Below, piece after piece: positions 2,103 to 20,681 of a DNA stretch of 60,180 nt. The stretch comes from an uncultured Pseudomonadota bacterium (lineage in GTDB: Bacteria > Pseudomonadota > Gammaproteobacteria > Steroidobacterales > Steroidobacteraceae). The notes beneath the pieces were generated by a model. It ran no database searches, was not told where the DNA came from, and worked only from the letters and a program-made list of their open reading frames with translations. Both the position numbers and the translations under genes were made by a program. Position 1 is the first letter of the stretch; every line of letters starts with the position of its first letter. The DNA is taken from the NCBI GenBank assembly GCA_903839465.1, contig CAIMCI010000007.1, positions 1 to 60,180 of the forward strand, read 5' to 3'.

Positions 2103-2263
2103 GGGGCATTTCCACGGGTGGAGGGTACGGCCGCCGCCAAGGCGGTGCCGCAGGGAGGACGATCAGTCAGGCCCCGACGCTACCGATCGGCCCGACCGGA
2201 GTCAACGCACTGTGACACCAGATAAGGCGACCCAGCCCTAAGCGGCCGTCCCTGGCGGATCAA

Positions 2264-2325: not shown

Positions 2326-2407
2326 GAGTCTCGGGCGGAAGCAGCGTTCAGTGTGATCACAGACAGCAAAGCCGGGTCCGTGCGCGCGGCAGTGCAACGA
2401 AACCGGG

Positions 2408-3556
2408 CTAGGACTCGAGGACGATCGCCCCGTTGATCTCCCAGCTGGCATAGACCGTGTCGTTCCAGTCGATTGCCCGCTCGGCCGTGCGGCGGTCGTT
2501 CTGCAGGAAGGCCGTCAGAATTTTCCCGCGGTCGGTCCGGATCTGGTACGTGGAACGGTTACCGAGGTAGCCCAGTTCCCAGACCGTGCCACGGACCTGG
2601 TTGACGGTATCGCCGGCGACCGGCTCCTTGCTGAGCCAGATCTTCTCGGGACGGACGGCCAGCCACACGCGTTGCCCGGCACTGACCCGACCGACGTCAT
2701 CGACCCGGACCTCGCAGTCGAGCTCGTGGGCGTAAATCGTGATCAGCCCAGGGCTCGCCTTGACGACCGTGCCTTCGAGGAAATTGGTCGTGCCGATGAA
2801 GTCGGCGACGAATCGCGACTTCGGAAACTCGTAGATCTCGGACGGGCTGCCGACCTGCAGGACCTTGCCCTGGTTCATCACCGCGATCCGGCTCGACAGC
2901 GCCATCGCCTCGTCCTGGTCGTGGGTGACGATGACGAACGTCGTACCCACCTCGTACTGGATATCCATCAGTTCGAACTGCGTCTGTTCACGCAGCTTCT
3001 TGTCCAGCGCCGACAGCGGCTCGTCCAGCAGCAATACCTTCGGCCGCCGGATCAGCGCACGGGCGAGCGCCACCCGCTGGCGCTGCCCGCCGGAAAGCTG
3101 GTGCGGCTTGCGCTTGCCGAGGTGCCCGAGCTGCACCAGCTGCAGCGCGTCGTCGACGCGCTTTCGCTTCTCGTCGGCCGGAATCCTGAGCGTCCGCAGT
3201 CCGTAGCCGACGTTGGCCTCGACGGTCATGTGCGGAAAGAGCGCGTACGACTGGAACATCATATTGACCGGACGCTCGTGCGCCGGTACGCCGACCATGT
3301 CCGCATCGTCGATCACGATTCGTCCCGACGTGGGCTCGGCAAATCCCGCCAGCATGCGCAGCAGCGTGGTCTTGCCGCAGCCCGACGAACCGACGAGCGC
3401 GAATATCTCGCCCTTGTAGATACGCAGATCGACGTTATCAACGGCATTGAACGCACCATAGGTCTTGGTGACGTTCTGGATCACGATCTGCGGCTTAGCT
3501 GCAGGGTCCAGCCACGGCCTGTCGCCGGACGGCTTGGTCGACGGAGCGCTGGTCAT
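2408..3556 (-). CDS. potA: Polyamine-type ABC transporter ATP-binding protein
   Basis: This 382-residue ATPase has Walker A (GSSGCGKTT), the ABC signature (LSGGQRQRVALARAL), Walker B (VLLLDEPLSALD), the H-loop (IVTHDQDEAMA) and a C-terminal TOBE-type domain of about 110 residues, as expected for PotA/PotG. It would energise import with the PotB, PotC and PotD homologues found 9-14 kb away in this window, since no other ABC subunits are present. An in-frame TTG 36 bases further upstream is an alternative start; the ATG is preferred because the homologous region begins well after it. The gene follows the GcvT-like gene on the same strand with a gap of about 70 bases. The substrate (polyamine or another organic cation) is not shown by sequence. 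Confidence 0.85.
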   Translation of the reverse strand: MTSAPSTKPSGDRPWLDPAAKPQIVIQNVTKTYGAFNAVDNVDLRIYKGEIFALVGSSGCGKTTLLRMLAGFAEPTSGRIVIDDADMVGVPAHERPVNMMFQSYALFPHMTVEANVGYGLRTLRIPADEKRKRVDDALQLVQLGHLGKRKPHQLSGGQRQRVALARALIRRPKVLLLDEPLSALDKKLREQTQFELMDIQYEVGTTFVIVTHDQDEAMALSSRIAVMNQGKVLQVGSPSEIYEFPKSRFVADFIGTTNFLEGTVVKASPGLITIYAHELDCEVRVDDVGRVSAGQRVWLAVRPEKIWLSKEPVAGDTVNQVRGTVWELGYLGNRSTYQIRTDRGKILTAFLQNDRRTAERAIDWNDTVYASWEINGAIVLES

Positions 3557-3626
3557 CGTGCGCAGCCGCCCCGCCGGGCCCGCCGCGGGCAACCACTCGC
3601 CATCTGACTCGCCGTACGCACGTTGC

Positions 3627-4841
3627 CTAGCGATCCGCGGGCGGCGTCAACCGTCGGCGCTCGGGCGCAAAGAACGGTTTTTCGACCACGGTCGCCTTGA
3701 CCATGCGCCGTTCCCAGAGGAGTTCGCGGTTGAGGTAGATCTCCGCCCATACCTCGGAGCCTACTGAAAAGAACGGCGCGTTGACCATAGCGAGCGCGAT
3801 ATTGCGCTTGCAGGTCGGCGACCACATCGCCGAGGTCACGAAACCGACCTCGGTCTGACCGCTCTTGTCCGTATACAGCAAGGCACTGTGGGCGGGCTTG
3901 TTGCCGTCGATGTCGAGCCCGACGAGCTTGCGGGTGACGCCGCGCTTTTGCTCGGCCACGAGCGCGCGCCTGCCGTTGAAGTGCCCCTTCTTGAAATCGA
4001 CGAGCCAGTCGAGGCCGAGCTCCAGCGGCGACCGGTCACGACCCAGCCGGATCGTGCTCTCCGCGGACACGAAGTCGAAGTGAGGCATCAGGAACCCGGC
4101 TTCGATGCGCACGGCGTTCAGCGCCTGCGATCCGATCGGGCGGATCAACCGCGTTCGTCCGGCTTCCATCAGCCGGTCCCAGATGAATTCCGCCTTCTCC
4201 GGCGGCATCCAGATCTCGTAGCCGAGATCACCGGTAAAGCCGGTCCGGGAAGCCATGACATCGACGCCCTCGACCTGGAAGCGGCCCACTTCGAACGGCT
4301 TCAGGTTCTCGATGCCGGACATTCCGAGCTGCTTCAGCGTCCAGCACGAGGTCGGACCCTGTACGGCGAGCGCGGCGACCTGCTCGGTGACTTCCTCGAC
4401 GGCCACGTCAAAGCCAATCGCCGAATCGAGTAGCCAGTCATACTGCCGCTCAGCACAGCACAGCCAGTACTCGTCCTCGCCGAGCCTGAAGAGCGTGCCG
4501 TCATCGAGGATGTGTCCGTCATCGTTGCACCATACGGTGTAGATGACCCGGTTGACCTTGAGCTTCGAGACGTCGCGGGTAACGAGATGGTTGAGGAAGC
4601 GGAGCGCCCCCTTGCCGGTGATCCGGTACTTGATCATCGGCGTGAGGTCGTACACGCCGGTGGTGTTGCGGACCGCGAAGTACTCCTGCTCCGGCGACGT
4701 GAAAACGTCGACGGTCGTGTACCCGGCCCAGGCCACGAAGCTGTCGTTCTGACTGAGTGCCCGCGCCCGGTTGTGGAACGGGGTCTTCAGCAGAGGCTGA
4801 TTGAAGTGGGTCACGCCGTCGGTGGGATTGCTCATTGTCAT
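3627..4841 (-). CDS. GcvT-like aminomethyltransferase / THF-dependent demethylase family protein
   Basis: The 404-residue protein matches the GcvT/DmdA superfamily along its length: an N-terminal folate-binding region with VYDLTPMIKYRITG and RFLNHLVTRDV, a central ALAVQGP segment, GFTGDLGYEIWMP, and the C-terminal beta-barrel. Members bind tetrahydrofolate and accept a methyl or methylene group. It is not part of a gcvTHP set. Its start overlaps the stop of the upstream flavoprotein gene (ATGA), so translation is probably coupled and the two products may act in sequence, the flavoenzyme oxidising an amine or N-methyl group and this protein trapping the C1 unit on THF. The substrate is unknown; demethylation of an amine is an inference. 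Confidence 0.75.
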   Translation of the reverse strand: MTMSNPTDGVTHFNQPLLKTPFHNRARALSQNDSFVAWAGYTTVDVFTSPEQEYFAVRNTTGVYDLTPMIKYRITGKGALRFLNHLVTRDVSKLKVNRVIYTVWCNDDGHILDDGTLFRLGEDEYWLCCAERQYDWLLDSAIGFDVAVEEVTEQVAALAVQGPTSCWTLKQLGMSGIENLKPFEVGRFQVEGVDVMASRTGFTGDLGYEIWMPPEKAEFIWDRLMEAGRTRLIRPIGSQALNAVRIEAGFLMPHFDFVSAESTIRLGRDRSPLELGLDWLVDFKKGHFNGRRALVAEQKRGVTRKLVGLDIDGNKPAHSALLYTDKSGQTEVGFVTSAMWSPTCKRNIALAMVNAPFFSVGSEVWAEIYLNRELLWERRMVKATVVEKPFFAPERRRLTPPADR

Positions 4842-6391
4842 ACCGCCTTCGCCAGCACGGCCTGCGCGGCCAGCCGTCCGTTTTCACCCGCCACTCCGCC
4901 ACCCGGGTGCGTTGCCGCACCGCAGAGGAAAAGACCTGCCACGGGTGTGGAGTACTGCGCGGCACCGGCCACGGGCCGCACGAAATAGAACTGATCGAGT
5001 GCGAGATCGGCGTGGTGCCAGTGGCCGCCCCGGTTGCCGTAGCGCGCCTCGAGGTCGACCGGCGTCAGGAGCTCCGCCGCCCGGACGGACGAGCGCAGTC
5101 CCGGCGCCAGCCCCTCCAGCTGATCGATCAGAAGAGCCTGATAGGCGTCCCGCTGTTCCGTCCACCCTGCCCGCAGGTCGTAGGCTGCGCATTCGACGAC
5201 TGCCGACAGCACGTGGCTGCCGGCAGGTGCAAGCGACGGGTCGTTGACGGTCGGCACGGTGATTTCCATCGCCGGAGCCGCGGAATATTCCCCGTACTTC
5301 GGTGCGTCAAAGGCACGCTCGACGTAGGTGAGCGACGGCGCCAGCAGCAGCCGGCCGCGCAACGCCGATTCGGGCAGGTTGGCAAATGCCGGCAGCCGGT
5401 CCAGCGCCAGGTGGAGCTTCGCCACGACCCCCTTGGACCGCGCCCGGTCGACCCGGCGGACGAATTCCGTATCCAGGTGTTCGGGGCCGAGGAGATCGAT
5501 GAAGGTCGTTTTGGGATCGGCGTTGGAGACGACGACCGGCGCGAGGTAACTCTCGCCGGAGGACAGCACGACGCCCGTCACCCGGTCGTCGGCGACCAGC
5601 ACGCGGTCGACGCGTACGCCGGTGCGTACCTCCGCGCCGGCGGCCTTGGCCGCCCGGGCGAGTGCGTCGCTGAGCCCGCCCATGCCGCCGACGGGCTGGG
5701 CGAGCCCGACGTTGCCGTCGGCGCCCTGCATCGCGAGCCGGACGAGCCACGGCAGCACCGTGCCCGGGGCGCGCGGTCCAAGATTGCCGCCCAGTGTTGC
5801 GTCGAAGGCCAGGGCACCCTGCAGGAGCGGCGCCTTCAGGTAGTCGGTGCAGAGGTCGTACGCATTCATGCCAATGATTCGCAAGAGCTCGCGCATGTCC
5901 TTGCGGCCCAGGCGGCGGATCTGCCAGCCGAGCTTGAGCAGCGCAATCCGGTCGCTCCAGGCGTCGGTCCCCAGACGCGGCGGCACGCTCGCCAGCATCG
6001 GGCGCAGCGCACCCGCCAGCCTCGTCATCCGCGTCAGGAACGCGGGGTAGGCTTCGGCGTCGACCGGCGAGGCCGCGGCGACGCTCTCGGGCGTCAAGAG
6101 GAGGTGATTGCCGGAAGGAGACAGCGACGTCGTCGCCATGCCATTCGCGGCGAACTGAAGCCCGTGCTGTTCAAGGCCAAGGGCCGTGATCAGTGACCGG
6201 GGCATCAGGTGCATCAGGTGGGCGGTCGAGGCACGAAACCCCGGCGCGAACTCATGCGTCGCCGCGGGACCTCCGACCGACGTCGAGGCCTCGACGATCA
6301 GTACCCGCTTGCCGCGCCTGGCGAGAATGGCGCCGCAAACGAGGCCGTTGTGGCCCGCGCCGATGATGATGCAGTCGTAGTGTGCTTGCAC
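4838..6391 (-). CDS. PYROXD2-like FAD-dependent oxidoreductase (second of a tandem pair)
   Basis: A GTG start gives 517 residues with an N-terminal FAD-binding motif (IIIGAGHNGLVCGAILARRG) and the C-terminal family signature around HPGGGVAGENG. The length and the ends match the PYROXD2/phytoene-desaturase-like branch of FAD amine oxidoreductases, whose natural substrates are mostly unknown. It has a paralogue of the same architecture directly upstream and overlaps the GcvT-like gene downstream by four bases. The neighbours suggest oxidation of an amine or N-methyl compound. There is no carotenoid gene nearby, so a role in carotenoid synthesis is unlikely. Confidence 0.75.
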   Translation of the reverse strand: MQAHYDCIIIGAGHNGLVCGAILARRGKRVLIVEASTSVGGPAATHEFAPGFRASTAHLMHLMPRSLITALGLEQHGLQFAANGMATTSLSPSGNHLLLTPESVAAASPVDAEAYPAFLTRMTRLAGALRPMLASVPPRLGTDAWSDRIALLKLGWQIRRLGRKDMRELLRIIGMNAYDLCTDYLKAPLLQGALAFDATLGGNLGPRAPGTVLPWLVRLAMQGADGNVGLAQPVGGMGGLSDALARAAKAAGAEVRTGVRVDRVLVADDRVTGVVLSSGESYLAPVVVSNADPKTTFIDLLGPEHLDTEFVRRVDRARSKGVVAKLHLALDRLPAFANLPESALRGRLLLAPSLTYVERAFDAPKYGEYSAAPAMEITVPTVNDPSLAPAGSHVLSAVVECAAYDLRAGWTEQRDAYQALLIDQLEGLAPGLRSSVRAAELLTPVDLEARYGNRGGHWHHADLALDQFYFVRPVAGAAQYSTPVAGLFLCGAATHPGGGVAGENGRLAAQAVLAKAV

Positions 6392-6414
6392 GCTGTGATT
6401 CTCTCGGCGATGGG

Positions 6415-8052
6415 TTAGGCGACTTTCTTGAGGTCACGAAGCACGGCCTGAGCCGCGTTGTGGCCCGGGGCGCCCATGACGCCACCACCGGGGTGGGTGC
6501 TGGAACCGCACATGTAAAGGCCGCGCACCGGCGCACGGTACTGCGCGTATCCCGGAACGGGCCTGTTGAAGAGCAGCTGATCCATCGTCAGCTCACCCTG
6601 GAAGATATTGCCTTCCGTCAGGCCGACCTCGCGCTCGATATCGAACGGCGTCCGGACCTCGGCATGCAGGATCAGGCTCTTGAAGTTGGGGCTTTGCCGG
6701 GCGATGGTCTCGATGACCGAGTTGGCGAAGCCCTGCTTCTTTTCCGGGGTCCACGGCCCATCGGCGAGCTCGTACGGACAGTATTGCGTGAACACCGACA
6801 TGTAGTGCTTGCCGTTGGGCGCCATCGTCGGGTCGATCTGCGACGGCATGAGCATGTCGATGTACGGCGCCTGAGACCAGCGTCCTGCTTTCCAGTCGTC
6901 GTACGCCCGTTCCATCATATCGATGGTGTCGGTGACGTGCATGTCGCCGCGGATGCACGGCGCCCCTTTCGGGATCGCCGGAAACTCGGGCAGGCCGTCG
7001 AGCGCGATATTGAGCTTGCCCGACGAGCCGCGGATCTTGAACTTGCGCACCTGCTCGACGAACTCGGACGGCAGGTCGCTGGCATCCATCGACTCGAGGA
7101 ACGTCCGCTTGACGTCCATGTTCGACATGATCGTGTTGGCGTAGAGCTCCTCGCCGTCGCTGAGCGCGACGCCAACGGCGCGCTCGTTGCGCACCAGGAA
7201 CTTGGATACTCCGGCTCCTGCGCGGATGGTGCCGCCGCTGGCCTCGAACGACGCACCCAGTGCCTTGGACACGGCGCCCATGCCGCCACGCGCAAAGCCC
7301 CAGGCACCGACCGTGTCGTCGATGTCGCCCATGTAGTGATGGAGCAGCACGTAGGCAGTGCCCGGCGAGCGGGGCCCGAGGGCCGTACCGATGATCGAGC
7401 TGCCCGCGTAATGCGCCTTGACGATTTCGCTCTCGAAGTACTCGTCGAGGAAATCCGCCGCGCTCATGGTCCAGAAGCGGATGGTGTCGTACATCCGCTT
7501 CTCGCCCATGTTGTGGAAGCGCTTGCCGATGTAGAGCAGTTCCTGGATATCCCGGATCTTGAACGACGTCGGATCCGGCGGCTCGCGCAGCAGCAGCGGC
7601 TTGATGAATTTGCACTGGCGCATGACATCGCGCGCGTACCGGTCGTAGGCTTCGGCGTCACGCTTCGAGTGCCGCGAGATCTCCCGGCGCAGCGCGTCGT
7701 GATTGTCATAGAGGGCAAAATGATTGCCGTCGTGCATCATCGTGCAGCCGCCCTCGTAGGGAATCACCTGCAGGCCGAACTTCGGCAGCTCGAGCTGGCG
7801 CATGATCTCCGGCCGCAGCAGGCTGCAGACATAGGAGCAGTTCGAGTAGGTGAATTCCGGGTAGAGCGACCGGCTCACCGCCGCACCGCCGATGTAGTCG
7901 TTCCGCTCCAGGACGAGGACGTTCAGTCCGCTGCGCTGCATATAGCAGGCAGCGACAAGTCCGTTGTGCCCGGCGCCGACGACGATTACGTCGTAGCGCT
8001 TCGAGTTTCCGCTGGCTGCACTCACTCTGTTCTGCTCCCCCGGCGACGGCAC
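6415..8052 (-). CDS. PYROXD2-like FAD-dependent oxidoreductase (first of a tandem pair)
   Basis: This 545-residue flavoprotein starts at GTG right after the stop of the upstream aminotransferase gene. It shows VVGAGHNGLVAACYMQRSG for FAD binding near residue 25, a conserved GGMGAVSKAL segment in the middle and STHPGGGVMGAPGHNAA near the C-terminus, the hallmark of the PYROXD2 group. It is a diverged paralogue of the next gene; duplicated genes kept in tandem suggest a hetero-oligomer or two consecutive oxidation steps. The operon (aminotransferase, two flavoproteins, GcvT-like protein, PotA) points to catabolism of an imported amine. The reaction itself is not known. Confidence 0.75.
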   Translation of the reverse strand: MPSPGEQNRVSAASGNSKRYDVIVVGAGHNGLVAACYMQRSGLNVLVLERNDYIGGAAVSRSLYPEFTYSNCSYVCSLLRPEIMRQLELPKFGLQVIPYEGGCTMMHDGNHFALYDNHDALRREISRHSKRDAEAYDRYARDVMRQCKFIKPLLLREPPDPTSFKIRDIQELLYIGKRFHNMGEKRMYDTIRFWTMSAADFLDEYFESEIVKAHYAGSSIIGTALGPRSPGTAYVLLHHYMGDIDDTVGAWGFARGGMGAVSKALGASFEASGGTIRAGAGVSKFLVRNERAVGVALSDGEELYANTIMSNMDVKRTFLESMDASDLPSEFVEQVRKFKIRGSSGKLNIALDGLPEFPAIPKGAPCIRGDMHVTDTIDMMERAYDDWKAGRWSQAPYIDMLMPSQIDPTMAPNGKHYMSVFTQYCPYELADGPWTPEKKQGFANSVIETIARQSPNFKSLILHAEVRTPFDIEREVGLTEGNIFQGELTMDQLLFNRPVPGYAQYRAPVRGLYMCGSSTHPGGGVMGAPGHNAAQAVLRDLKKVA

Positions 8053-9381
8053 TTAGGCCGTTTCCCTGTTCGTTGTGACTCCGGCCTTCAGCGTCGCGTC
8101 GACCGCAATTTCGAACCCGCGGAGCGTGTCCGTCAAGCACGAGTCATCGTGGGCCGCCGAGATGAACCAGGGTTCGCGCGAGTCCGGCTCGCAGAGCACG
8201 CCCTCGTCGTGGAGCACCTGGGCCATCGCGTCGTAGAAGGAGTAGTCGCTGCCCTTCCAGTCGCGGTAGTTGCGCGGCGGTTCGGCCGCGAAGTACAGGC
8301 CGCTCATCGACGGGTGGCCGACGAAGCTGTGGGCAATACCGCGGGCGCTTAAGATCGCCCGCATGCCGTCCCGCAGTCGGGTGCCGTAGGCGGCGATATC
8401 GGCCAGGGCCGAGGTTTCGTCGAGGATCTGCAGGCAGGTTTCGGCTGCCGCGAGCGAGACCGAATGAGCGGTGTAGGTACCGCCATGGGCGACGCCCTTG
8501 CCGATCTTGCGCATGATGTGCTCGCGGCCCGCGAGCACCGAAATCGGGTAGCCGTTGGCGACGGCCTTGGCGAACGTACAGATGTCGGCATGCACGCCGT
8601 ACAGCTCCTGGACTCCGCCCTTGGCCACCCGGAAGCCGGTCTTTACCTCGTCGATGAACATGACCACGCCGTACTTGGTGCACAGGTCACGCGCCGCGCG
8701 AAGGTACTCGGGCTCGGCGGAGATCCCGAGGCAGTTGCCCATGATCGGCTCGATGAGCATGCAGGCGATCTTGCTGCCGTGCTTCTTGAAGACGTCTTCG
8801 AGCTGGTTCGCGTCGTTCGCCTGGACGAAGTGGGCGTAGGAGCGGGTGCCGACCGGAATGCCCTCGCTGTAGGGATGAATCTCAGGCTCACCCTCCTTCT
8901 TCCACTTTTCCATGGGCGTGTACCACATGGCCGCGTCGAACAGGCCGTGGTAGCCGCCCTCAAGGATGACGTAGTCGTCCCGGCCGGTGAAGGCACGCGC
9001 CAGTCGCAGGCCGGCCATGACGGCCTCGGTGCCCGAATTGGAAAAGCGCACGAGTTCCGCCGAGGGCACCATCTTGGCGATGCGGTCGGCAACGATCAGC
9101 TCGCGCTCGGTGGCGAGCGCGAAGACGCCGCCGACTTCCATGCCGCGACGGGCGGCTTCGTCCACTCGCGGGTCCGCGTAGCCCAGGATCGCCGGGCCGT
9201 AGCCGAGCCGGTAGTCGACGTAGTTGTTGTCGTCGATGTCGGTGATCCGTGCGCCGCGCCCGCTCTTGACGTAGATGGTGCGGTCCTCGCCCCAGTATCG
9301 GAAGTTCGATGCCACGCCGAGCGGCAGTCGCTTAACAGCGCGCTTGAACTGTTCGTTGCTCTTCGTAAGTTTTCGGGTCAT
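8053..9381 (-). CDS. Class III PLP aminotransferase of the GSAM/aspartate aminotransferase family
   Basis: The 442-residue protein begins at an ATG with an upstream GAGAGAG. It contains the class III features: GTEAVMAGLRLARA for cofactor phosphate contacts, ILEGGYHGLFDA, the Asp of VVMFIDEVKTGFR and the PLP lysine in TFAKAVANGYPISV, followed by GGTYTAHS. It resembles glutamate-1-semialdehyde aminomutase in layout, but the genomic setting argues against heme synthesis. It is the first gene of a minus-strand operon leading into two flavoproteins, a GcvT-like protein and potA, so transamination of an amine or amino-aldehyde taken up from outside is likely. An upstream extension of the frame to 9507 lacks family similarity and is rejected. 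Confidence 0.8.
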   Translation of the reverse strand: MTRKLTKSNEQFKRAVKRLPLGVASNFRYWGEDRTIYVKSGRGARITDIDDNNYVDYRLGYGPAILGYADPRVDEAARRGMEVGGVFALATERELIVADRIAKMVPSAELVRFSNSGTEAVMAGLRLARAFTGRDDYVILEGGYHGLFDAAMWYTPMEKWKKEGEPEIHPYSEGIPVGTRSYAHFVQANDANQLEDVFKKHGSKIACMLIEPIMGNCLGISAEPEYLRAARDLCTKYGVVMFIDEVKTGFRVAKGGVQELYGVHADICTFAKAVANGYPISVLAGREHIMRKIGKGVAHGGTYTAHSVSLAAAETCLQILDETSALADIAAYGTRLRDGMRAILSARGIAHSFVGHPSMSGLYFAAEPPRNYRDWKGSDYSFYDAMAQVLHDEGVLCEPDSREPWFISAAHDDSCLTDTLRGFEIAVDATLKAGVTTNRETA

Positions 9382-9671
9382 GGCGGACTCTCTCGGAATG
9401 GGTGCCGGGCTTTGTGGACGGAGGCGGCAACGTAGCAGCCCGAATTCGGCGAGTCCATGCAAATTATATGTGTATATAAATAATGCACTGCAGCAGCCGA
9501 TTCTCAAGCCTATTCGGCCCCTTAGAGGTTCTGAGGAACAATTAGCGGCATTTATAGTATTTAAAGGAGATATAAGCGGTTGCTAGGGAATCTCTTTACC
9601 TTGTCGGCGACGCCATTCGCGGGTACCTTAGGTATCCAATTACATGACCATATAGCTCTGGGAGTCGCCCG
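9382..9671. promoter_or_regulatory. AT-rich divergent promoter region between an aminotransferase operon and a Rieske oxygenase gene
   Basis: This 290-base gap is much richer in A+T than its surroundings. For the minus-strand operon a perfect TATAAT lies at 9463-9468, without a good -35 hexamer. For the plus-strand oxygenase several weak -10-like stretches occur (around 9551-9556 and 9650-9656). GGGAG precedes its ATG. No gene fits in this gap. Confidence 0.45.
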
Positions 9672-10835
9672 ATGAACACTCTCGCCGCGGACATCAAGCC
9701 AAACGCCGGACGGACTCAGCGCTACGCGATGCCGGCCTGGATCTACAGTCATCCGGCCATGGCGGCGCTCGAACACGAGCGGATCCTCCGTCCCAGCTGG
9801 CAGATCGTCTGCCACCAGAACTCGATACCGAAGGCCGGCGACTTCGTGACCTTCGAAATAGGTCCCGACAGCGTCGTCGTGGTCCGTGACAAGGACGGCA
9901 GCATCCGCGCGTTCCACAACGTCTGCAGGCACCGCGGTGCCCGCATGCTCGACGGCGCCGGCAAGTGTGGCGGCGCGATCACCTGCCCGTACCACGGCTG
10001 GACGTACCGCCTGGATGGCGGCCTGATCGGGATTCCGTCCAAGGAGACGTTCGCCGACCTCGACCGCGCCGCACACGGCCTCCTGCCGGTGCGGATCGAG
10101 ACGTTTCTCGGCTTCGTGTTTGTCTGCCTCGCGGGCAACCCCCCGTCGCCGCGCGACGTGTTCGGCGAGATGGTCGAGGAGTTCACCCCCTATCGCATCG
10201 AGGACATGGTTCCGCTCGGCCCGATCACGACCGAGATCTGGAACGTGGACTGGAAGCTCGCGATGGACAACTACCTGGAGTCTTATCATGTCCCGATCGG
10301 GCATCCTGGCCTGGCGCGGATGTTCACGCCGGACTACGAGGACCAGCGCGGCGTACCGGGCCTCGCGCGCGGCATTTCCTGGGTGAAGGACCGGCCTTCG
10401 GCTCGCTGGGCGGAGCAGATCTACACCCGCCACATCGCCGACATCGCGACGCACCTCCCCGCGGACAACCGCAGGAGCTGGCGCTTCTACAGCATGCTGC
10501 CGAACCTCGGCATCGACCTCTTCCCGGAGCAGATCGATTTCTTCCAGGTGCTGCCGGGCGGACCCAATCGCACGGTCATCCGCGGCGCCACGTTCGGCCT
10601 GCCCGATGACCGGCGCGAGATGCGCCTGATGCGCTACCTCGGCTCCCGGATCAATGCCCAGGTCAATGCCGAGGACCGCTGGTTGTGCGAGCGCGTCGCG
10701 CAGGGCCTGCAGTCGTCGACCTACGTGCCGGGCCCCCTGTCCGATCTCGAGCGCTGGATGGCCGAGTTCCACGACATGCTGCGCGAGCGCATCCCGGAAA
10801 CCCGTCAGTCGAGCGCGCCGGCCGCCTTTGCCTGA
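9672..10835 (+). CDS. Rieske non-heme iron oxygenase, alpha subunit (quaternary-amine demethylase type)
   Basis: The 387-residue protein has a complete Rieske [2Fe-2S] site (CRH, 17 residues, CPYH, near residues 84-108) and a full mononuclear iron site: DNYLESYHVPIGH supplies two His ligands and NAEDRW the carboxylate. It resembles the group that includes GbcA (glycine betaine), Stc2 (stachydrine) and CntA (carnitine), which remove an N-methyl or split the amine using O2 and electrons from a separate reductase. No reductase gene (GbcB-like) is in the window, so one must be supplied from elsewhere. It is preceded by an AT-rich promoter region and meets the TetR-Rieske gene tail to tail 14 bases apart. 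The family is certain; betaine as substrate is inferred from the many betaine genes around. Confidence 0.8.
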   Translation: MNTLAADIKPNAGRTQRYAMPAWIYSHPAMAALEHERILRPSWQIVCHQNSIPKAGDFVTFEIGPDSVVVVRDKDGSIRAFHNVCRHRGARMLDGAGKCGGAITCPYHGWTYRLDGGLIGIPSKETFADLDRAAHGLLPVRIETFLGFVFVCLAGNPPSPRDVFGEMVEEFTPYRIEDMVPLGPITTEIWNVDWKLAMDNYLESYHVPIGHPGLARMFTPDYEDQRGVPGLARGISWVKDRPSARWAEQIYTRHIADIATHLPADNRRSWRFYSMLPNLGIDLFPEQIDFFQVLPGGPNRTVIRGATFGLPDDRREMRLMRYLGSRINAQVNAEDRWLCERVAQGLQSSTYVPGPLSDLERWMAEFHDMLRERIPETRQSSAPAAFA

Positions 10836-10849
10836 GGCGAACGGCCAGG

Positions 10850-12508
10850 CTAGCGCGCGGTTCGCAGCAGGCGCCGGAAGGCTTCGAGCGGCGAGCCCGC
10901 CGGGGCTGTCGACCCGGGCGCCGGCTGGGCGGACAGGCTGCGTTGCAGGGACTCTATGATCGGCACGTCTTCGCCCAGCATGCGCAGCGCCATGCGCCGG
11001 GCGAGCCAGCCCATTGCCTGCTGGCGGCGATCGGCGCCGGCCGGCCGGTATGCCCGGTACGCGACGTGACTGCCGCCGTCGTAGGCCGGCAGGACCGAGA
11101 GCACGCCCAGGCCGCCGGGATGCTGTTCGATCACGAGATTGGGCGCTATGAAGCGTCGGCGCCAGTTGGCATCGCCGCCAGCGGCGGCCAGGGTGGCAAA
11201 ACGCCCGGCCGCAAAGCCGGCGCCGAAGGTCCTGCCATCGGCCACCCAGTCGCTGCCGCCCGACTCATCGTCGACGCTGCACCGTGCGGGCGAGTCGATC
11301 GCGCCGAACCGCACCGTCGCCGCTGGCGAGAACCACGCGTCGAGCCAGTGCTCGACAACGACCGGCCACTCGGCGCGCACGGCGATGCGCGAACCCTTGT
11401 CGAGCGGCTGCCAGCCGACCGTGCCGGCCGGCCCGCCGCTCCACCCCTCACGGCCACCGACCCCCGCCGAGGGGCGAAGGAACAAGAGGCCGCCGATCCG
11501 CTCGAGAGGCAGCTCGGTCAGTGCCGCCGCGTCACCGAGCCCGGTTCCGTCCAGACGCCACACGAGGCCGTGCACGGGGCAGCGGATGTCCGGGCCGCCG
11601 CCGACTCGCGGCGGTTGCCACAGCTCGTGCGGCGAGTGGGTGCAGCGATTGATCCAGCCGCGCACGGTGCCCGCCGCGTCGCGGACCACCAGCACGGCGA
11701 CGCCCGCCACCGCCACGGCCTGCCGGTCACCGGGTGCCGGGAGGTCGTCCTCGTGCAGCAGGGGCTGCGCCGTGCGGCCGAACAGTTCCCTGTCGCGGCG
11801 CGCCAGGGAAGCGTCCGGGGTCGTGCCCGCACCGGGCGTCGCCTGACGCACGCCCGTCGCCGCGTCGCTGAACTGGCGGGGGAAGACCGACCGCAGGTAC
11901 GCAGCGCACCGCGCCCTGGCCGCAGGGCGGTCGATATCGGCTTCGAACTGGAACGCAAAGCCCTGCCACAGAACTTCCAGCAGGCCGATGAAGCCGAGGG
12001 ACAGCGCCTCGACGTCGAGATGGCTGTCGCCGCTCTCGGCGACGAGCCGACCCATCAGGTCCCTGACCAGCGCAACGAAGCTGTCGTCCTTGTGACCGCA
12101 GATCTCGTAGTATTCCTGACGGGCGCTGGCCTCGCCCCAGAAGGCGTACCAGACCGAGATCTTGCGCGGACTCGCCAGCTCCGGATCGAGGTAGAGCTCG
12201 ATGAGCCGCCGCATCGCCTCGACGGGCGTCTCGCGCATGGCCATGACGGGCTCGAGCACCTTTTCATCGAATTCGCTGGCAAGATATTGCAACGAGGCAA
12301 CCAGCATCGCGGCCTTGGACTTGAAGTAGAAGCGGACGATGCCCGGCGAGAGGTTGGCGATCGCGACGACCTTCTCGACGGTGGTGCGCGACGGCCCGTG
12401 GATGTGCAGCGCGGAGATGCACGCATCGATGAGGCGCTGCCGCTGGCGGTTGCGCGGCCCGCGCGTGGCCGGCAGGTCGGCACCGGCGGCCGGCAAACGC
12501 GGACTCAC
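10850..12508 (-). CDS. TetR/BetI-like DNA-binding domain fused to a Rieske oxygenase-like domain lacking the catalytic iron ligands
   Basis: A GTG with AGGG eight bases upstream gives 552 residues. Residues about 19-80 form a TetR helix-turn-helix (TTVEKVVAIANLSPGIVRFYFKSK with neighbouring helix), and residues 80-205 the BetI-type ligand-binding region (WYAFWGEASARQEYYE). After a linker, residues about 240-345 are a Rieske domain with C289-T-H291 and C310-P-V-H313, 18 residues apart. The rest aligns end to end with the neighbouring oxygenase: WPVVVEHWLDAWF corresponds to its WKLAMDNYLESYH. Both iron-binding His are replaced (Phe at 393, Thr at 398), while the third carboxylate (GED, Asp513) remains. 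The frame is open throughout, so this is a real fusion. It should be a regulator with an iron-sulfur sensor, not an oxygenase. It is divergent from potB and convergent with the true oxygenase. Confidence 0.85.
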   Translation of the reverse strand: MSPRLPAAGADLPATRGPRNRQRQRLIDACISALHIHGPSRTTVEKVVAIANLSPGIVRFYFKSKAAMLVASLQYLASEFDEKVLEPVMAMRETPVEAMRRLIELYLDPELASPRKISVWYAFWGEASARQEYYEICGHKDDSFVALVRDLMGRLVAESGDSHLDVEALSLGFIGLLEVLWQGFAFQFEADIDRPAARARCAAYLRSVFPRQFSDAATGVRQATPGAGTTPDASLARRDRELFGRTAQPLLHEDDLPAPGDRQAVAVAGVAVLVVRDAAGTVRGWINRCTHSPHELWQPPRVGGGPDIRCPVHGLVWRLDGTGLGDAAALTELPLERIGGLLFLRPSAGVGGREGWSGGPAGTVGWQPLDKGSRIAVRAEWPVVVEHWLDAWFSPAATVRFGAIDSPARCSVDDESGGSDWVADGRTFGAGFAAGRFATLAAAGGDANWRRRFIAPNLVIEQHPGGLGVLSVLPAYDGGSHVAYRAYRPAGADRRQQAMGWLARRMALRMLGEDVPIIESLQRSLSAQPAPGSTAPAGSPLEAFRRLLRTAR

Positions 12509-12579
12509 GGGACGAACCCTGCTGGCAGAGACGTTACGGTCGGGACACGGATGTATGGCACGAGCGAGAGCATAGCCTG

Positions 12580-13542
12580 ATGAACGCCCCTTCGTCCGCA
12601 CACGAACGGTCCGCGCCCGCCGACCCACCCGGGCCCCGGCACCGCTCCGGATTGACCGGTCGCCTGGGCCGCTGGCTGATCGTCCTGCCGCCTCTGGTAT
12701 TCCTGGTCGTCTTCTTCCTCGTGCCGTTCGCGTTCGCCTTCAAGATCAGCTTCGCGCAGACGGCGGTCCGCATCCCGCCGTTCACCGACCTGATCACCGT
12801 CGGCTCGGGCGGAGTATTCGGGTTGTCGTTCAACCTCGGCAACTACGCCTACCTGTTCACCGACGACGTGTACGCAATCTCCTACCTCTACTCGATCAAG
12901 ACGGCATTCTTCTCCACCATCCTCTGCCTGCTGCTCGGCTACCCGATGGCCTATGCCATCGCCCGGTCGCCGAAGGCCACGCAGAACATCCTGCTCCTGG
13001 TCATCATCCTGCCGTTCTGGACCTCGTTCCTGCTGCGCGTATATGCCCTCGAGGGGATTATCCGCGACGGCGGCCTGCTCAACACGGCGCTGCAATGGCT
13101 CGGCATCGTCCACCATCCCGTGAAGATCATGCGCACGACCTTTGCCGTATACCTCGGCATTGTCTACTCCTATCTGCCGTTCATGATCCTGCCGCTCTTC
13201 GCGACACTGGAGAAGCTCGACCACTCGCTGCTCGAGGCGAGCGCCGATCTCGGCAGTCCGCCGTGGAAGTCGTTCTTCGATATCACCTTGCCACTGTCCA
13301 TGCCGGGCGTCATCGCCGGCTCCATGCTCGTCTTCATCCCGGCGATCGGTGAATTCGTCATTCCGTCGCTGCTTGGCGGACCCGACAACCTCATGATCGG
13401 CCGCGTCCTGTGGGACGAATTCTTCAACAATCACGACTGGCCCGTGGCGTCGACGGTCGCCGTCGCGGTACTGGTACTGCTGGCCGGCCCCATCGCGCTT
13501 TACCAGCACTACAACGTCCGGGAAATGGAGCACTACGGGTGA
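12580..13542 (+). CDS. potB: Polyamine-type ABC transporter permease 1
   Basis: This 320-residue inner-membrane protein has a hydrophobic first helix (WLIVLPPLVFLVVFFLVPFA), about six membrane segments in all and the EAA loop (LEASADLGSPPWKSFFDITLPL) that contacts the ATPase, as in PotB/PotH. It starts at an ATG 71 bases from the divergent TetR-Rieske gene, so that regulator is a candidate for its control. Its stop overlaps the GTG of the next permease gene (GTGA). The ATPase and binding protein are encoded elsewhere in the window. A periplasmic loop insertion between helices 1 and 2 is usual for this subunit. Confidence 0.88.
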   Translation: MNAPSSAHERSAPADPPGPRHRSGLTGRLGRWLIVLPPLVFLVVFFLVPFAFAFKISFAQTAVRIPPFTDLITVGSGGVFGLSFNLGNYAYLFTDDVYAISYLYSIKTAFFSTILCLLLGYPMAYAIARSPKATQNILLLVIILPFWTSFLLRVYALEGIIRDGGLLNTALQWLGIVHHPVKIMRTTFAVYLGIVYSYLPFMILPLFATLEKLDHSLLEASADLGSPPWKSFFDITLPLSMPGVIAGSMLVFIPAIGEFVIPSLLGGPDNLMIGRVLWDEFFNNHDWPVASTVAVAVLVLLAGPIALYQHYNVREMEHYG

Positions 13543-14381
13543 GGTCGGGCCGCTTGAGCTTTTCCTTCACGATGCTGATGATCGGCATCGCTTTCCTTTA
13601 CGTGCCGATGCTGGTTCTCATCGGCTATTCGTTCAACGCATCGCCGCTGGTCAGCGTCTGGGGCGGCTTCTCGGTCAAGTGGTACGGCTCGCTTCTGCAC
13701 AACCGCCAGCTGCTCGATGCGGCGCTCCTGTCGCTCGAAATCGCCCTCCTCTCCTCGACGGGCGCCGTCATTCTCGGCCTGCTAGCGGCGACGGCGCTGG
13801 TGCGGTTCCGGCAGTTTCGCGGCCGCCTGCTGCTCACCGGGATGATCAACGCGCCGCTCGTGATGCCGGAAATCATCACGGGCATCACGCAGCTCCTGCT
13901 CTTTGTCTCCATGGCGCAGATGTTCGGCTGGCCGCATCGCGGGCTGACGACGATCGTGATTTCGCACGTGGTCTTCTGCGGCGCCTACGCCGCCGTCACG
14001 ATCCAGTCGCGGCTGATCACGGTCGACAGGTCGCTCGAGGAGGCGGCCCGCGACCTCGGCTCGACGCCCCTGCGCGCCTTCTGGGACGTCACCCTGCCGA
14101 TGATCATGCCGGCACTCGCCTCGAGCTGGCTGCTCAGCTTCACGCTGTCACTGGACGACCTCGTCATCTCGAGCTTCGTGTCCGGGCCGAGTGCGAGCAC
14201 CCTGCCCATGGTCATCTACTCGAAGGTGAAGCTCGGCGTCACGCCGGAGATCAACGCGCTGGCAACGCTGATCATCGTCGCCGTGGGTGCCTGTGTCGTC
14301 TTCGCCGGCTACACGATGCGCCGGGCGGAACGGCAGCGCGACCAGGAGATGCAGGCCGCGTACCGCCAGCCGGCGGGCTGA
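13539..14381 (+). CDS. potC: Polyamine-type ABC transporter permease 2
   Basis: A GTG overlapping the potB stop codon by four bases gives 280 residues; longer upstream frames read through potB and are not coding. Six membrane segments are visible, beginning with FTMLMIGIAFLYVPMLVLI, and the EAA loop is LEEAARDLGSTPLRAFWDVT. It is the PotC/PotI-type partner of the upstream permease. The overlap implies coupled translation and 1:1 assembly. The gene ends 12 bases from the convergent HD-domain gene. Confidence 0.87.
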   Translation: MRSGRLSFSFTMLMIGIAFLYVPMLVLIGYSFNASPLVSVWGGFSVKWYGSLLHNRQLLDAALLSLEIALLSSTGAVILGLLAATALVRFRQFRGRLLLTGMINAPLVMPEIITGITQLLLFVSMAQMFGWPHRGLTTIVISHVVFCGAYAAVTIQSRLITVDRSLEEAARDLGSTPLRAFWDVTLPMIMPALASSWLLSFTLSLDDLVISSFVSGPSASTLPMVIYSKVKLGVTPEINALATLIIVAVGACVVFAGYTMRRAERQRDQEMQAAYRQPAG

Positions 14382-14405
14382 CGGGCCCGCGATTCAGCCG
14401 CCGGG
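14370..14405. terminator. Bidirectional terminator-like hairpin between potC and the HD-domain gene
   Basis: An inverted repeat (CCGGCGGGCTGA at 14370-14381 and TCAGCCGCCGGG at 14394-14405) pairs with a single bulged base across a 12-base loop and contains both stop codons. There is no T-tract. It could end transcription from both sides, but this is inferred from shape alone. Confidence 0.4.
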
Positions 14406-14972
14406 CTTTACGTACCGCTCATCGTGCGCCTCGCGGCCGAAAATGCGGCGCAGGTACGGCTCGAAGGCTTCCAGCGGCAGCGAGTCGTACGTCGGATCGA
14501 AGGACGACTGGTCCCACTTCTCGCAGAACGCGGCACAGGACGCGTACCAGGGATGATCCCGGTGCCGGTCGCGCATGTTCCGGTCGCCACCCATGTGGTG
14601 CACGTAGTAGTAGGCCTGGAACAGGCCGTGCTGCTCGACGATCCACGTCACCTCCGGTCGCACGTACGGACGGAGGATTGCCGCGGCGATTTCCGCGTGA
14701 TTGTATGGCGCGAGCTCATCACCCACGTCGTGGACCAGCGCGGCAACGATCAGCTCGTCATCGGCACCGTCGCGCAGCGCCCGCGTAGCGGTCTGCAGCG
14801 AGTGCTCCAGGCGGCTAACCGGGTACCCCTCGATGGACTCGTTGAGGCGGCGCAGGGACGCCAGGATCCGGTCGGGCAGCGATCTCGCGTGCTCGCGCTC
14901 GGCGCCGTCGAGCAGTTCGAAGTCGTCCCGCGTGCCGTCCTTCATCTGCCGGAAACTGACGATTCTGGTCAT
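14394..14972 (-). CDS. HD-domain protein of the PhnZ/TmpB-like diiron group
   Basis: The 192-residue protein has the ligand pattern H...HD...H: LEHSLQTA, ALVHDVGD, NHAEIAAAILRPY and EQHGLF. The context LEHSLQTA-x-A-x5-GADDELIVAALVHD is close to PhnZ, an HD-fold mixed-valent diiron oxygenase that splits 2-amino-1-hydroxyethylphosphonate; TmpB of the same group makes glycine betaine from a trimethylammonio-phosphonate. As I recall the PhnZ sequence, its Glu seven residues before this first His is Tyr here (GYPVSRLEH), so the chemistry may differ. It follows a YbaY-META gene by 23 bases. Ordinary HD phosphohydrolase activity remains possible; an oxygenase role is an inference. Confidence 0.6.
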   Translation of the reverse strand: MTRIVSFRQMKDGTRDDFELLDGAEREHARSLPDRILASLRRLNESIEGYPVSRLEHSLQTATRALRDGADDELIVAALVHDVGDELAPYNHAEIAAAILRPYVRPEVTWIVEQHGLFQAYYYVHHMGGDRNMRDRHRDHPWYASCAAFCEKWDQSSFDPTYDSLPLEAFEPYLRRIFGREAHDERYVKPGG

Positions 14973-17177: not shown

Positions 17178-18077
17178 ATGAATCCCGACGTCATCATTAC
17201 CTGCGCAGTCACCGGCGACGACACCAAGGTCACGAAGAGCCCGCACTGCGCCGTGACTCCGCGCGAGATCGCCGATACGGCAATCGCCGCCGCCAAGGCC
17301 GGCGCCGCGATCGTCCACATCCACGTGCGCGAGCCGGAGACGGGCACCTTCAGCATGGAGACGAAGCACTACCGCGAAGTCGTCAAGCTGATCAAGGAGT
17401 CGAAGACCGACGTCATCATCAACCTGACCTGCGGGATGGGCGGGTACATCGTCGTCGGCGACAACGGTCTCAAGGACACGCCCGCGCCGGGTTCGGACTT
17501 CTGCAGCCAGGAAGACCGCATGCGGCACGTGATTGACCTCTGCCACGAGGGCCTGTACCGCCCGGACATCGCCACGATCGACTGCGGCAGCCTCAATTTC
17601 GGCGACGGCAACCGCGCCTACATTTCGACGCCGAATTACCTCCGCCAGGGCGTGCAGATCGCCCGCGACCTCGGCGTGAAGCCGGAGCTCGAGGTGTTCG
17701 ACACCGGCAACCTGTGGTTCGTGAAGCAGATGATGAAGGAAGGCCTGCTGAACGACCCGGCCATGATCCAGCTGTGCATGGGTATCCCCTACGGCGTGCC
17801 CGCCGACACGGGTCACCTGCTGGCAATGGTCAATTCCCTGCCGTCGAACACCGTCTGGAGCTCGTTCGCCATCAGCCGCATGCAGATGCCGTGGGTTGCC
17901 CAGTCGATCCTGCTCGGCGGTCACGTGCGGGTCGGCCTCGAGGACAACCTGTACCTCTCCAAGGGCGTGTACGCCAGCAACGCCCAGCTCGTCGAGCGTG
18001 CGCGGACGATTATCGAGGCGATGGGCGCCAAGGTGATGACGGCGGCGGACGCGCGCGAGCGCCTGAAGCTGGGCTGA
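17178..18077 (+). CDS. cdhC: BKACE-family 3-dehydrocarnitine cleavage enzyme
   Basis: The 299-residue protein is a beta-keto acid cleavage enzyme (DUF849): N-terminal VIITCAVTGDDTKVTKSPHCAVTP, the zinc-binding VHIHVRE, INLTCGMGG and PELEVFDTGNLWF. In carnitine-degrading bacteria CdhC of this family combines 3-dehydrocarnitine with acetyl-CoA to give betainyl-CoA and acetoacetate. That role is supported by the adjacent thioesterase gene, the CaiD-like gene in the same operon and the carnitine dehydrogenase 8 kb away under a shared operator-like element. GAGG precedes the ATG. A different beta-keto acid substrate such as 3-keto-5-aminohexanoate is possible but less consistent with the context. 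Confidence 0.82.
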   Translation: MNPDVIITCAVTGDDTKVTKSPHCAVTPREIADTAIAAAKAGAAIVHIHVREPETGTFSMETKHYREVVKLIKESKTDVIINLTCGMGGYIVVGDNGLKDTPAPGSDFCSQEDRMRHVIDLCHEGLYRPDIATIDCGSLNFGDGNRAYISTPNYLRQGVQIARDLGVKPELEVFDTGNLWFVKQMMKEGLLNDPAMIQLCMGIPYGVPADTGHLLAMVNSLPSNTVWSSFAISRMQMPWVAQSILLGGHVRVGLEDNLYLSKGVYASNAQLVERARTIIEAMGAKVMTAADARERLKLG

Positions 18078-18081
18078 CGGC

Positions 18082-18558
18082 ATGGCAGGCAAGGAAATTG
18101 GTCGCACCGGCATCCGGCCGGACTGGATCGACTACAACGGCCACCTGCGCGACGCGTACTACGTGGTCATCCTGTCCGACATGACCGACCGGTTCATGGA
18201 CCAGATCGGCGTCGACGCGGCCTATCGCGAGTCGACGAGATGCACGCTGTACACGCTCGAGATGCATCTGAATTACCTGCTCGAGGTCAAGGAGAGCGAC
18301 GAGCTTCGGACCGACATCCGGCTTGTCGCCCACGACAGCAAGCGGATCCACGCCAGCTTCGAGATGTACGTGCCGCGCCATGCGACACCGGTGCTGACCG
18401 CCGAGTGCATGCTGCTGCACGTGCATCAGGGCGAAACCGTCGGTTCGGCGCCGTTTCCGGCCAGCGTCCTTGCCGAGCTCGCCGCCTGGCAGGCCCTGTC
18501 GGACGGGCTGGCGCCGACCGAGCCCGGTTCACGCCAGATCGCCCTGCGCCGCCGCTGA
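18082..18558 (+). CDS. cdhB: Hot-dog thioesterase, betainyl-CoA type
   Basis: This 158-residue single-domain hot-dog protein starts four bases after cdhC. The segment RPDWIDYNGHLRDAYYV holds the catalytic Asp and NGH typical of 4-hydroxybenzoyl-CoA-thioesterase-like enzymes. It is clearly related to the C-terminal domain of the carnitine dehydrogenase in this window (PPDWVDYNGHMTDFRY). In Pseudomonas the cdhCAB genes include such a thioesterase that frees glycine betaine from betainyl-CoA. It should act in the cytoplasm directly after CdhC. Carnitinyl-CoA is an alternative substrate. Confidence 0.78.
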   Translation: MAGKEIGRTGIRPDWIDYNGHLRDAYYVVILSDMTDRFMDQIGVDAAYRESTRCTLYTLEMHLNYLLEVKESDELRTDIRLVAHDSKRIHASFEMYVPRHATPVLTAECMLLHVHQGETVGSAPFPASVLAELAAWQALSDGLAPTEPGSRQIALRRR

Positions 18559-18619
18559 CCGAGTCGCCCAACCGCGTCGTGGTGGCGGACAGCCACCCGC
18601 CCGTCTACCCGAGGCCGGA

Positions 18620-20680
18620 ATGAGCTCCAGACCCATCGACCGACTGCTCGTCCCCAGGAACGTCGCGCTGGTCGGCGGGACGTGGACCGATGCCGTTGCC
18701 AAGTCCTGCCAGACCATCGGCTTCGACGGTCCGGTCTGGCGGATCCACCCGACCCGCCCGTCGACGGCCACGACCCACTATTTTCGTTCGATCGACGAGC
18801 TGCCGGAGGCACCCGACGCGACGTTCCTTGCCGCACCCAACCGCGACGTGCCGGCGGTTGCGGCCGCGCTGAAACGGCGCGGCGCGGGCGGGTTTGTCTG
18901 CTTTGCGGCAGGCTTTTCCGAAACGGCGACGGAGGAAGGGCTGCGCCTGACGCGCGAACTCGACGAAGCCGCGGGCGACCTGCCCTTCTTCGGTCCCAAC
19001 TGCTACGGGTTCATCAACTTCTTCGACCGCGTGGCGCTCTGGCCCGACCAGGTGGTCGGTGAGCCGACCCGGCGCGGCGTCGCGCTGATCTGCCAGAGCG
19101 GCACGATTTCCCTGAACCTGATGTTCAGCCAGCGCTCGCTGCCCATCGGCTATCTCATCACGGTCGGCAACCAGCAGCGGGTCGCGCTCGAGGACCTGAT
19201 CGAACTGATGTGCGATGACGACCGCGTCACGGCATTTGGCCTCTACATCGAGGGGATCAAGGATCCGGCCCGCTTCGCCCGCGCCGTCGACAAGGCCCGC
19301 CGCGCCGGCAAGCCGATCGCGCTGGTCAAGACCGGGCGGACGGCGGCCGCTGCCCGGACCACGCAGAGCCACACCGGCGCGCTGGCCGGGGTCGATGTCG
19401 TGTTCGACGCCTATTGCCGGGATGCCGGCATTGCCCGACTCGATTCGCTGGGGGCGCTCTGCGAAACGCTCAAGGTCCTGCACGCGGGCGGCCCGCTGCC
19501 CGGCCGGCGCGTGCTGATCCTCGGCGCCTCCGGCGGCGACATGGCGATGACCGCCGATACGGCCCGTGACCTGGGTCTCGAGTTTCCGCCGATCGAACCG
19601 TCCAACGTCACTCGCCTGCGCGACATCCTCTCCGAACGCGTGACCATCGCCAACCCGTTCGACTTCCATACCTACATCTGGTTCGACCTGCCGAAGCTGC
19701 ACGCACTATTCAGCGAATCGACCCGGGCCGGCTACGATGCCGTCGGCTTCATGGTCGACTGCCCGCCGCCGGAAACGACGGATCCGAAAAGCTACTACGA
19801 GGCGATCGACCAGTTCATCTCCGCGGCCAGGGATGCTCCCTCCCGTGGCGCCGTGATCAGCTCGTTGCCGGAGTCGATGGCCGCCGTTACCCGCAAGGCA
19901 TGCCTAGCCGGCGGCGTCGTGCCGCTCCAGGGCCAGCGGGACGCGCTCGTCGCGCTCGATGCCGCAGGTTCGATTGGCGAGGTCTGGGGTGGGGCGCGCC
20001 GCGTGGAGCTGCGCATCCCACAGCAGACGGGCGGCGCCACCCGGGCGCTGACCGAAGCCGATGGCAAGGCCGCGCTTTGCGCCTACGGCCTTGCGGTGCC
20101 GAAGGCGGACGTCGTGGCGCCGGACCAGGTGGCCGCCACGGCGAGCAGGATCGGCTTTCCGGTGGTACTTAAGGCCGTCGGCGAGCACCTGCAGCACAAG
20201 TCCGAGGTCGGTGGCGTCATCGTCAATGTCCGCACGCCGGCCGATGCCGCGGCGGGCGCGGCGAAGCTCGCGACGCTCTCGGATCGCATCCTCGTCGAGG
20301 AGATGATCGCCGACGGCGTCGCCGAGATCCTGGTCGGCGTCATGGTCGATGCGCAGTTCGGGCAGGTCCTGCTGCTCGGCGCCGGCGGGATCACGACCGA
20401 GCTCTGGCATGACACGGTTACCCTGCTGCCGCCGTTTACCGCACAGTCGATCGAGGCGGGACTGAAGCGGCTGACGGTCTGGAAGCTGCTGGCGGGCTTT
20501 CGCGGCAAGCCCGCTGGCGACGTTGCTGCGCTCGTCGAGGCGGCCCTCGCCGTTACCCGCTATGCCGCGGACCACCTCGAGACGCTGTCGGAACTCGATG
20601 TCAACCCGATCATCGTGCGGCCCGCCGGACGCGGCGCCGTTGCTGTCGATACTCTGATTCGGCTTGCGGAGGAAACCTGA
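18620..20680 (+). CDS. NDP-forming acyl-CoA synthetase, single-chain (candidate betaine/butyrobetaine:CoA ligase)
   Basis: The 686-residue chain contains the CoA-binding domain (NVALVGGTW onwards), a succinyl-CoA-ligase-like domain with the phosphohistidine motif SHTGALAG, and a C-terminal ATP-grasp domain (about 470-686, GFPVVLKAVGEHLQHKSEVGGV). It is thus an ADP-forming ligase, unlike the AMP-forming CaiC. The ATG at 18620 follows the thioesterase gene by 61 bases, and its stop is one base from the ATG of the CaiD-like gene. The operon suggests activation of gamma-butyrobetaine, crotonobetaine or carnitine with CoA, which the hydratase and acyl-CoA dehydrogenase need. The substrate is inferred; acetate or another acid cannot be excluded. 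Confidence 0.75.
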   Translation: MSSRPIDRLLVPRNVALVGGTWTDAVAKSCQTIGFDGPVWRIHPTRPSTATTHYFRSIDELPEAPDATFLAAPNRDVPAVAAALKRRGAGGFVCFAAGFSETATEEGLRLTRELDEAAGDLPFFGPNCYGFINFFDRVALWPDQVVGEPTRRGVALICQSGTISLNLMFSQRSLPIGYLITVGNQQRVALEDLIELMCDDDRVTAFGLYIEGIKDPARFARAVDKARRAGKPIALVKTGRTAAAARTTQSHTGALAGVDVVFDAYCRDAGIARLDSLGALCETLKVLHAGGPLPGRRVLILGASGGDMAMTADTARDLGLEFPPIEPSNVTRLRDILSERVTIANPFDFHTYIWFDLPKLHALFSESTRAGYDAVGFMVDCPPPETTDPKSYYEAIDQFISAARDAPSRGAVISSLPESMAAVTRKACLAGGVVPLQGQRDALVALDAAGSIGEVWGGARRVELRIPQQTGGATRALTEADGKAALCAYGLAVPKADVVAPDQVAATASRIGFPVVLKAVGEHLQHKSEVGGVIVNVRTPADAAAGAAKLATLSDRILVEEMIADGVAEILVGVMVDAQFGQVLLLGAGGITTELWHDTVTLLPPFTAQSIEAGLKRLTVWKLLAGFRGKPAGDVAALVEAALAVTRYAADHLETLSELDVNPIIVRPAGRGAVAVDTLIRLAEET

Positions 20681-20681
20681 T

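Follow-up and report, generated by a model that had tools for sequence, protein, structure and literature searches.

The fusion gene and its neighbourhood

Within the window (the whole stretch of DNA analysed, 60,180 nucleotides of contig CAIMCI010000007.1 from an uncultured bacterium of the family Steroidobacteraceae), a single reading frame of 552 codons runs from a GTG at 12508 to a stop at 10850, joining a TetR/BetI-type regulator to a Rieske-type oxygenase domain. The gene, its neighbours and its domains are as follows:

10850..12508, minus strand: fusion of a TetR/BetI-type half to an apparently inactive Rieske oxygenase, 552 aa, defined by its reading frame and orthologues
9672..10835, plus strand: intact Rieske oxygenase alpha subunit, with CxH, CxxH, DN..E..H....H and D all present; convergent with the fusion gene
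8053..9381, minus strand: class III aminotransferase (HemL/GntE-like), divergent from the oxygenase gene and first of the aminotransferase-FAD-FAD genes
4838..8052, minus strand: two CrtO/CrtI-like FAD oxidoreductases (4838-6391 and 6415-8052)
12580..14381, plus strand: PotH/PotB- and PotI/PotC-like permeases, divergent from the fusion gene
17181-29482 and 2408-4841: carnitine-type catabolic genes and a GcvT/TMAO-demethylase-like gene that flank the locus
12296..12430, minus strand: TetR_N helix-turn-helix, aa 27-71 (Pfam PF00440)
11882..12226, minus strand: BetI-type TetR_C_6 ligand/dimerisation domain, aa 95-209 (Pfam PF13977)
11543..11767, minus strand: Rieske-type domain, aa 248-322 (Pfam PF00355 and fold match to Rieske oxygenases)
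10853..11368, minus strand: predicted oxygenase catalytic-domain fold without iron ligands, aa 381-552 (residue alignment and models)
11330-11332 and 11315-11317, minus strand: Phe393 and Thr398, in place of the two iron histidines

The gene order is conserved among relatives, with potC-potB divergent from the fusion gene, the oxygenase gene convergent with it and the aminotransferase and two FAD oxidoreductase genes following, and the orientations given in an earlier, sequence-only reading of this DNA are correct. Around the locus lie a carnitine 3-dehydrogenase (25559-27034; score 604.8 against a cut-off of 592), a BKACE enzyme, a thioesterase, acyl-CoA-ligase-like, crotonobetainyl-CoA-hydratase-like and GcvT/TMAO-demethylase-like proteins, and a PotFGHI-type transporter. 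The locus likely serves a quaternary-amine pathway, and the carnitine-type genes nearby make it plausible that quaternary amines are relevant to the regulator; the neighbouring oxygenase scores far under the GbcA cut-off (171 versus 670). One branch of the family carries an extra divergent Rieske oxygenase gene between the fusion gene and the usual oxygenase gene (loci L068 at 13196-14467, L071, L073-L075, L094, L107, L110, L122 and L127), its product being 26-32% identical to the usual one. At 22279-23535 of the window, three YbjQ_1 (PF01906) matches stand in one chain.

The open frame and the Pfam matches agree with the earlier description of a TetR helix-turn-helix, a BetI-type region and a Rieske-oxygenase fold in one frame. 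In the window protein, TetR_N scores 24.0 bits, exactly at its cut-off of 24.0, TetR_C_6 scores 44.9 (cut-off 27) and Rieske 36.8 (cut-off 20.3), and Ring_hydroxyl_A gives a sub-threshold match to the C-terminal tail (17.6 versus 24.9). Among relatives, the helix-turn-helix is nearly invariant and a WY-FWGE aromatic stretch is conserved in the TetR_C_6 domain. The N-terminal half has the same domains (PF00440 plus PF13977) and fold as BetI and other TetR-family repressors, although, at 68.9 against the BetI equivalog cut-off of 201.3, the protein is not BetI by that model. Unlike these repressors, the fusion carries an apparently dead oxygenase of about 320 aa, and its residues 215-549 do align end to end, as first noticed, with the intact oxygenase at 9672-10835 (BLASTP, 23% identity, E 2e-15).

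Distribution, fold and selective constraint

Some 50 separate assemblies of environmental Steroidobacteraceae-type genomes carry the full-length fusion without a break and with its neighbours in the same order; two congeners (60% and 54% identical) and further genera of the family also have it unbroken. Relatives were found in 75 of the 217 genomes of the family searched, and a scan of named genomes yielded 80 loci, mostly from Gammaproteobacteria/Steroidobacteraceae MAGs from lake, bog and soil; the relatives are thus largely metagenome-assembled genomes. Across Pseudomonadota, a sample of 398 genomes searched without a positive control held no full-length intact fusion at E<=1e-150 and gives no support to a wide spread of the fusion. 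Plasmid searches returned TetR-only or short matches, and no match to the fusion was found in the viral contigs searched. At L130 (9029-10686), the fusion lies in two frames, one for the TetR part and one for the dead-oxygenase part, through either a real split or an assembly error.

Residue conservation was read from 56 fusions less than 85% identical to each other. Phe393 and Thr398 do replace the two iron histidines in the window protein, as the first reading had it, and both histidines of the facial triad occur together in none of the 56. The carboxylate described there as remaining is an Asp in the window protein, but the position varies in the family (D 11, E 11, Q 11, A 9; n = 56), and the bridging-Asp position is mostly Glu (48/56). 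Since the iron ligands are gone from the family, oxygenase activity has probably been lost.

The fold is predicted to have outlived the ligands. AlphaFold2 models of the window protein and of its relative at L091 (pLDDT 87.7 and 90.4) present a complete oxygenase fold, with VIA Z of about 26 to CntA, NagGH and terephthalate dioxygenase over about 300 residues; Stc2 is likewise matched, CntA and Stc2 giving VIA Z of about 25-26 against the C-terminal half. The N-terminal half matches TetR structures at Z of about 19 (19.7 for 3e7q). CntA carnitine monooxygenase, Stc2 stachydrine demethylase and GbcA are quaternary-amine Rieske oxygenases with which the fusion likely shares its pathway context, and its C-terminal half is modelled with the fold of CntA and Stc2. 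The fusion differs from all three in having no iron ligands, in its remodelled Rieske site and in being joined to a regulator.

Pairwise dN/dS values are 0.05-0.2 for the TetR half, 0.1-0.5 for the Rieske part and 0.2-0.5 for the catalytic remnant, staying below 1 in every pair tested (about 0.5 for the C-terminal half of the window protein against L059). The C-terminal half evolves faster than the TetR half and is under constraint that is weaker but real. Unbroken frames in independent assemblies, together with this purifying selection, mark the fusion as real rather than a frame error.

The putative metal site and its origin

The residues that concern the putative metal site are these:

11642..11644, minus strand: Cys289, first metal-site cysteine, with zero changes on the tree
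11636..11638, minus strand: His291, the canonical Rieske histidine (Cys+2), present here and variable in the family
11627..11629, minus strand: His294 (Cys+5), near-invariant in the fusion family and absent from the free oxygenases of the set
11570..11581, minus strand: Cys310-x2-His313, second half of the metal site

The earlier claim that the Rieske ligands are kept is right for the window protein, which has both Cys289-x-His291 and Cys310-x2-His313, but does not extend to the family, where the His291 position is His in only 8 of 55 (R 15, Q 10, H 8, E 7, V 7, A 3, others). In the other 47 it is R, Q, E, V, A, N, S, K or I, with Arg and Gln in the two nearest relatives of the window protein. 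Cys289, His294, Cys310 and His313 are kept in 55, 55, 55 and 54 of the 56 fusions, fall within the nine most conserved columns of the C-terminal half and are its only highly conserved Cys or His residues. The exceptions include two early-branching members with Asp at the His313 position and L124, where most of the loop is missing. On a tree built without the ligand columns themselves, these four residues underwent 0, 0, 1 and 1 changes and His291 underwent 19, the median of C-half columns; the chance that four random C-half columns would all be as slow as the quartet is about 8e-6.

Because His291 changes freely and the quartet is nearly fixed, the family has given up the Rieske pattern for Cys-x4-His...Cys-x2-His; judged from the alignment, the canonical Rieske [2Fe-2S] ligand pattern is not conserved in it, and the window protein resembles a normal Rieske motif because it happens to have both His291 and His294. 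The Cys+5 position is presumably that of the loop-1 disulphide cysteine next to the cluster in the bc1 Rieske protein, which makes a ligand there sterically plausible. The invariance of His294 could instead reflect a structural role without metal binding.

In oxygenase-domain trees, all dead domains fall in a single clade that joins the intact TetR-oxygenase fusions (support 99/96); the free oxygenases, including the neighbour at 9672-10835, lie outside. The grouping of the fused half with these intact fusions in two trees overturns the idea that it derives from the oxygenase next door; duplication of that gene as its source is ruled out. The intact fusions come from the cultured Inquilinus limosus, one Hyphomicrobiales MAG and relatives in the family and order of the window (L132, L133, L134, L136 and L137, with matches near 1725-11770, in the group L132-L137 that includes Inquilinus limosus; L023 at 195-2096; L024 at 8444-10303). 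They have the same domain order as the dead fusions, carry His at Cys+5 and are nearest to the dead domain; they differ in keeping both canonical Rieske histidines and the iron triad, and may for that reason be active enzyme-regulators, one protein possibly serving as both repressor and enzyme. We found no paper on them in the open-licence literature.

The motif of this intact group is CxHxxH, with His at both Cys+2 and Cys+5 (the outlying L138 has Ser), whereas Cys+5 is Ala, Thr or Ser in 74 of 74 free oxygenases read and His in 0/74. As CxHxxH is already present in intact fusions and in none of the free oxygenases read, the simplest sequence of events is gain of the extra histidine in a fusion that was still intact, followed by release of the first one. 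At L026 (7049-8925), the gene for an intact oxygenase shares 4 bases with a BetI-like TetR gene on the same strand, a layout that could plausibly have preceded a fusion.

Candidate operator sites and the regulatory reading

Two copies of a putative operator palindrome, TTATATGnnCATATAA, lie between the intact oxygenase gene and the aminotransferase gene:

9464..9479, plus strand: operator-like palindrome TTATATGTGTATATAA, one mismatch to TTATATGnnCATATAA, about 80 bp upstream of the aminotransferase ATG
9640..9655, plus strand: operator-like palindrome TTACATGACCATATAG, two mismatches to TTATATGnnCATATAA, 16 bp upstream of the oxygenase ATG

The two copies compare with 0.05 expected in the window and are the sole matches at two mismatches in the 3.86 Mb genome. 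The earlier proposal of a regulator target in 9382-9671 thereby gains candidate sites; the other proposed binding region, the TetR-potB gap at 12508-12580, holds no good copy. The palindrome recurs in 46 of 47 homologous intergenic regions, usually with one copy near each start, accompanies domain-less TetR relatives too and is absent from outgroup loci with a different TetR. A palindrome beside a catabolic promoter fits a TetR dimer, and since the fusion is the only regulator recognised among the cluster genes scanned, it is the obvious candidate to bind these sites.

Standalone TetR proteins nest among the fusions in the TetR tree, suggesting several later losses of the oxygenase half. Regulators without it occur at L115/L116, L111/L112/L118/L119/L126, L114/L120/L121 and L113; domain-less loci keep the operator-like palindrome wherever the intergenic region is covered, and those of the L111 type have the oxygenase upstream of the TetR gene on the same strand. 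Because the TetR half and the operator persisted through several losses of the C-terminal half, that half appears not to be essential to the basic switch.

The best explanation of the whole, to which we give a probability of roughly 60%, is a TetR/BetI-type repressor that acts at the oxygenase/aminotransferase promoter and is tuned by its metal-bearing dead oxygenase half. Through the two palindromes, the fusion would repress the promoter region from which the intact Rieske oxygenase gene and the aminotransferase-FAD-FAD operon diverge. Its C-terminal half would descend from an ancestral TetR-oxygenase fusion with catalytic ligands intact, the change from enzyme to non-enzyme having come with loss of the mononuclear iron ligands and of the constraint on the first Rieske histidine. 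The retained Cys-x4-His...Cys-x2-His would most likely bind metal, as Zn2+ or as a [2Fe-2S] cluster whose histidine ligand has moved, and the dead half would act as an accessory sensor or stabiliser that tunes the TetR half; pathway substrate or redox/metal state would be signalled by the metal site and/or the former substrate cavity. The sequences themselves show the fusion, the missing iron ligands, the conserved quartet, the kinship with intact fusions, the operator-like sites with their position, and purifying selection; site binding by this TetR protein, repression, metal binding and the signal sensed are steps that we infer. The earlier reading's general idea of an oxygenase turned regulator is supported.

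A sharper version holds that the Rieske fold has been naturally re-ligated to Cys-x4-His/Cys-x2-His and that the TetR half binds DNA under allosteric control by Zn or a re-ligated [2Fe-2S] cluster, which would make this a new metal-dependent one-component regulator with an intact, ancestor-like form still alive; we offer it tentatively, at clearly less than even odds.

The strongest rival sees the dead half as a degenerating remnant of an earlier bifunctional fusion that persists for the sake of solubility or oligomerisation and is nearing loss, with the TetR half alone sensing the amine and regulating. We consider this unlikely, although it accounts for the repeated losses that spared TetR and operator, and the faster evolution of the C-terminal half and the lack of conservation at former active-site residues also speak for it. 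It does not account for the invariant quartet, four exact metal-type residues kept in nearly all of the 56 proteins although the domain around them has diverged strongly; a dN/dS that stays under 1 in each tested pair and the complete oxygenase fold predicted by the models likewise tell against it, and pure decay would not predict a variable His291 beside an invariant His294.

Rather less probable is the original proposal that the regulator senses redox state or oxygen through a canonical Rieske [2Fe-2S] cluster. All four canonical ligands stand in canonical spacing in the window protein, and there are precedents for redox proteins in regulation: in Sphingopyxis granuli, the electron-transfer proteins ThnA3 and ThnY of a Rieske-type oxygenase system act as regulators, ThnY being a reductase-like protein recruited for this role (PMC4814904), and RsrR, of the Rrf2 family, is a transcription factor with a redox-active [2Fe-2S] cluster (PMC5015018). 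ThnA3/ThnY are the nearest functional precedent, as redox proteins of an oxygenase system that regulate its genes, but they are separate proteins working with a LysR activator and involve neither fusion to a DNA-binding domain nor a dead oxygenase; RsrR is unrelated in fold and family. With His291 free to vary, even in both closest relatives, and the conserved quartet being C289/H294/C310/H313, such a cluster does not hold up as a conserved reporter, and the model could apply only to the His291-keeping minority that includes the window protein, or with His294 as a substitute ligand.

It is very improbable that the fusion is an enzyme component, its Rieske half feeding electrons to the adjoining intact oxygenase in a mixed trimer or serving other chemistry: a conserved Glu at the bridging-Asp position (48/56) and the usual adjacency of the two genes would suit that role, but no member has the iron triad, the canonical cluster histidine is not conserved and the domain is fused to a conserved DNA-binding protein. 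An assembly or frame error joining two genes, for which one could cite relatives whose regulator stops after the TetR domain, is rejected on the strength of the full-length frame in some 50 separate assemblies.

We found no description of TetR-Rieske regulators, Rieske pseudoenzymes or zinc in a Rieske fold in the open-licence literature. Together these proteins provide a natural graded series, from free oxygenase through TetR-oxygenase fusion with every catalytic ligand and dead, sensor-like fusion with a remodelled metal site to domain loss, in which the change from enzyme to transcriptional sensor is directly testable. The natural shift of a Rieske ligand also offers a test case for metalloprotein design, namely which metal a Rieske fold takes up once the first histidine moves three residues, and the identification of a likely operator and likely target genes gives assays an immediate starting point.
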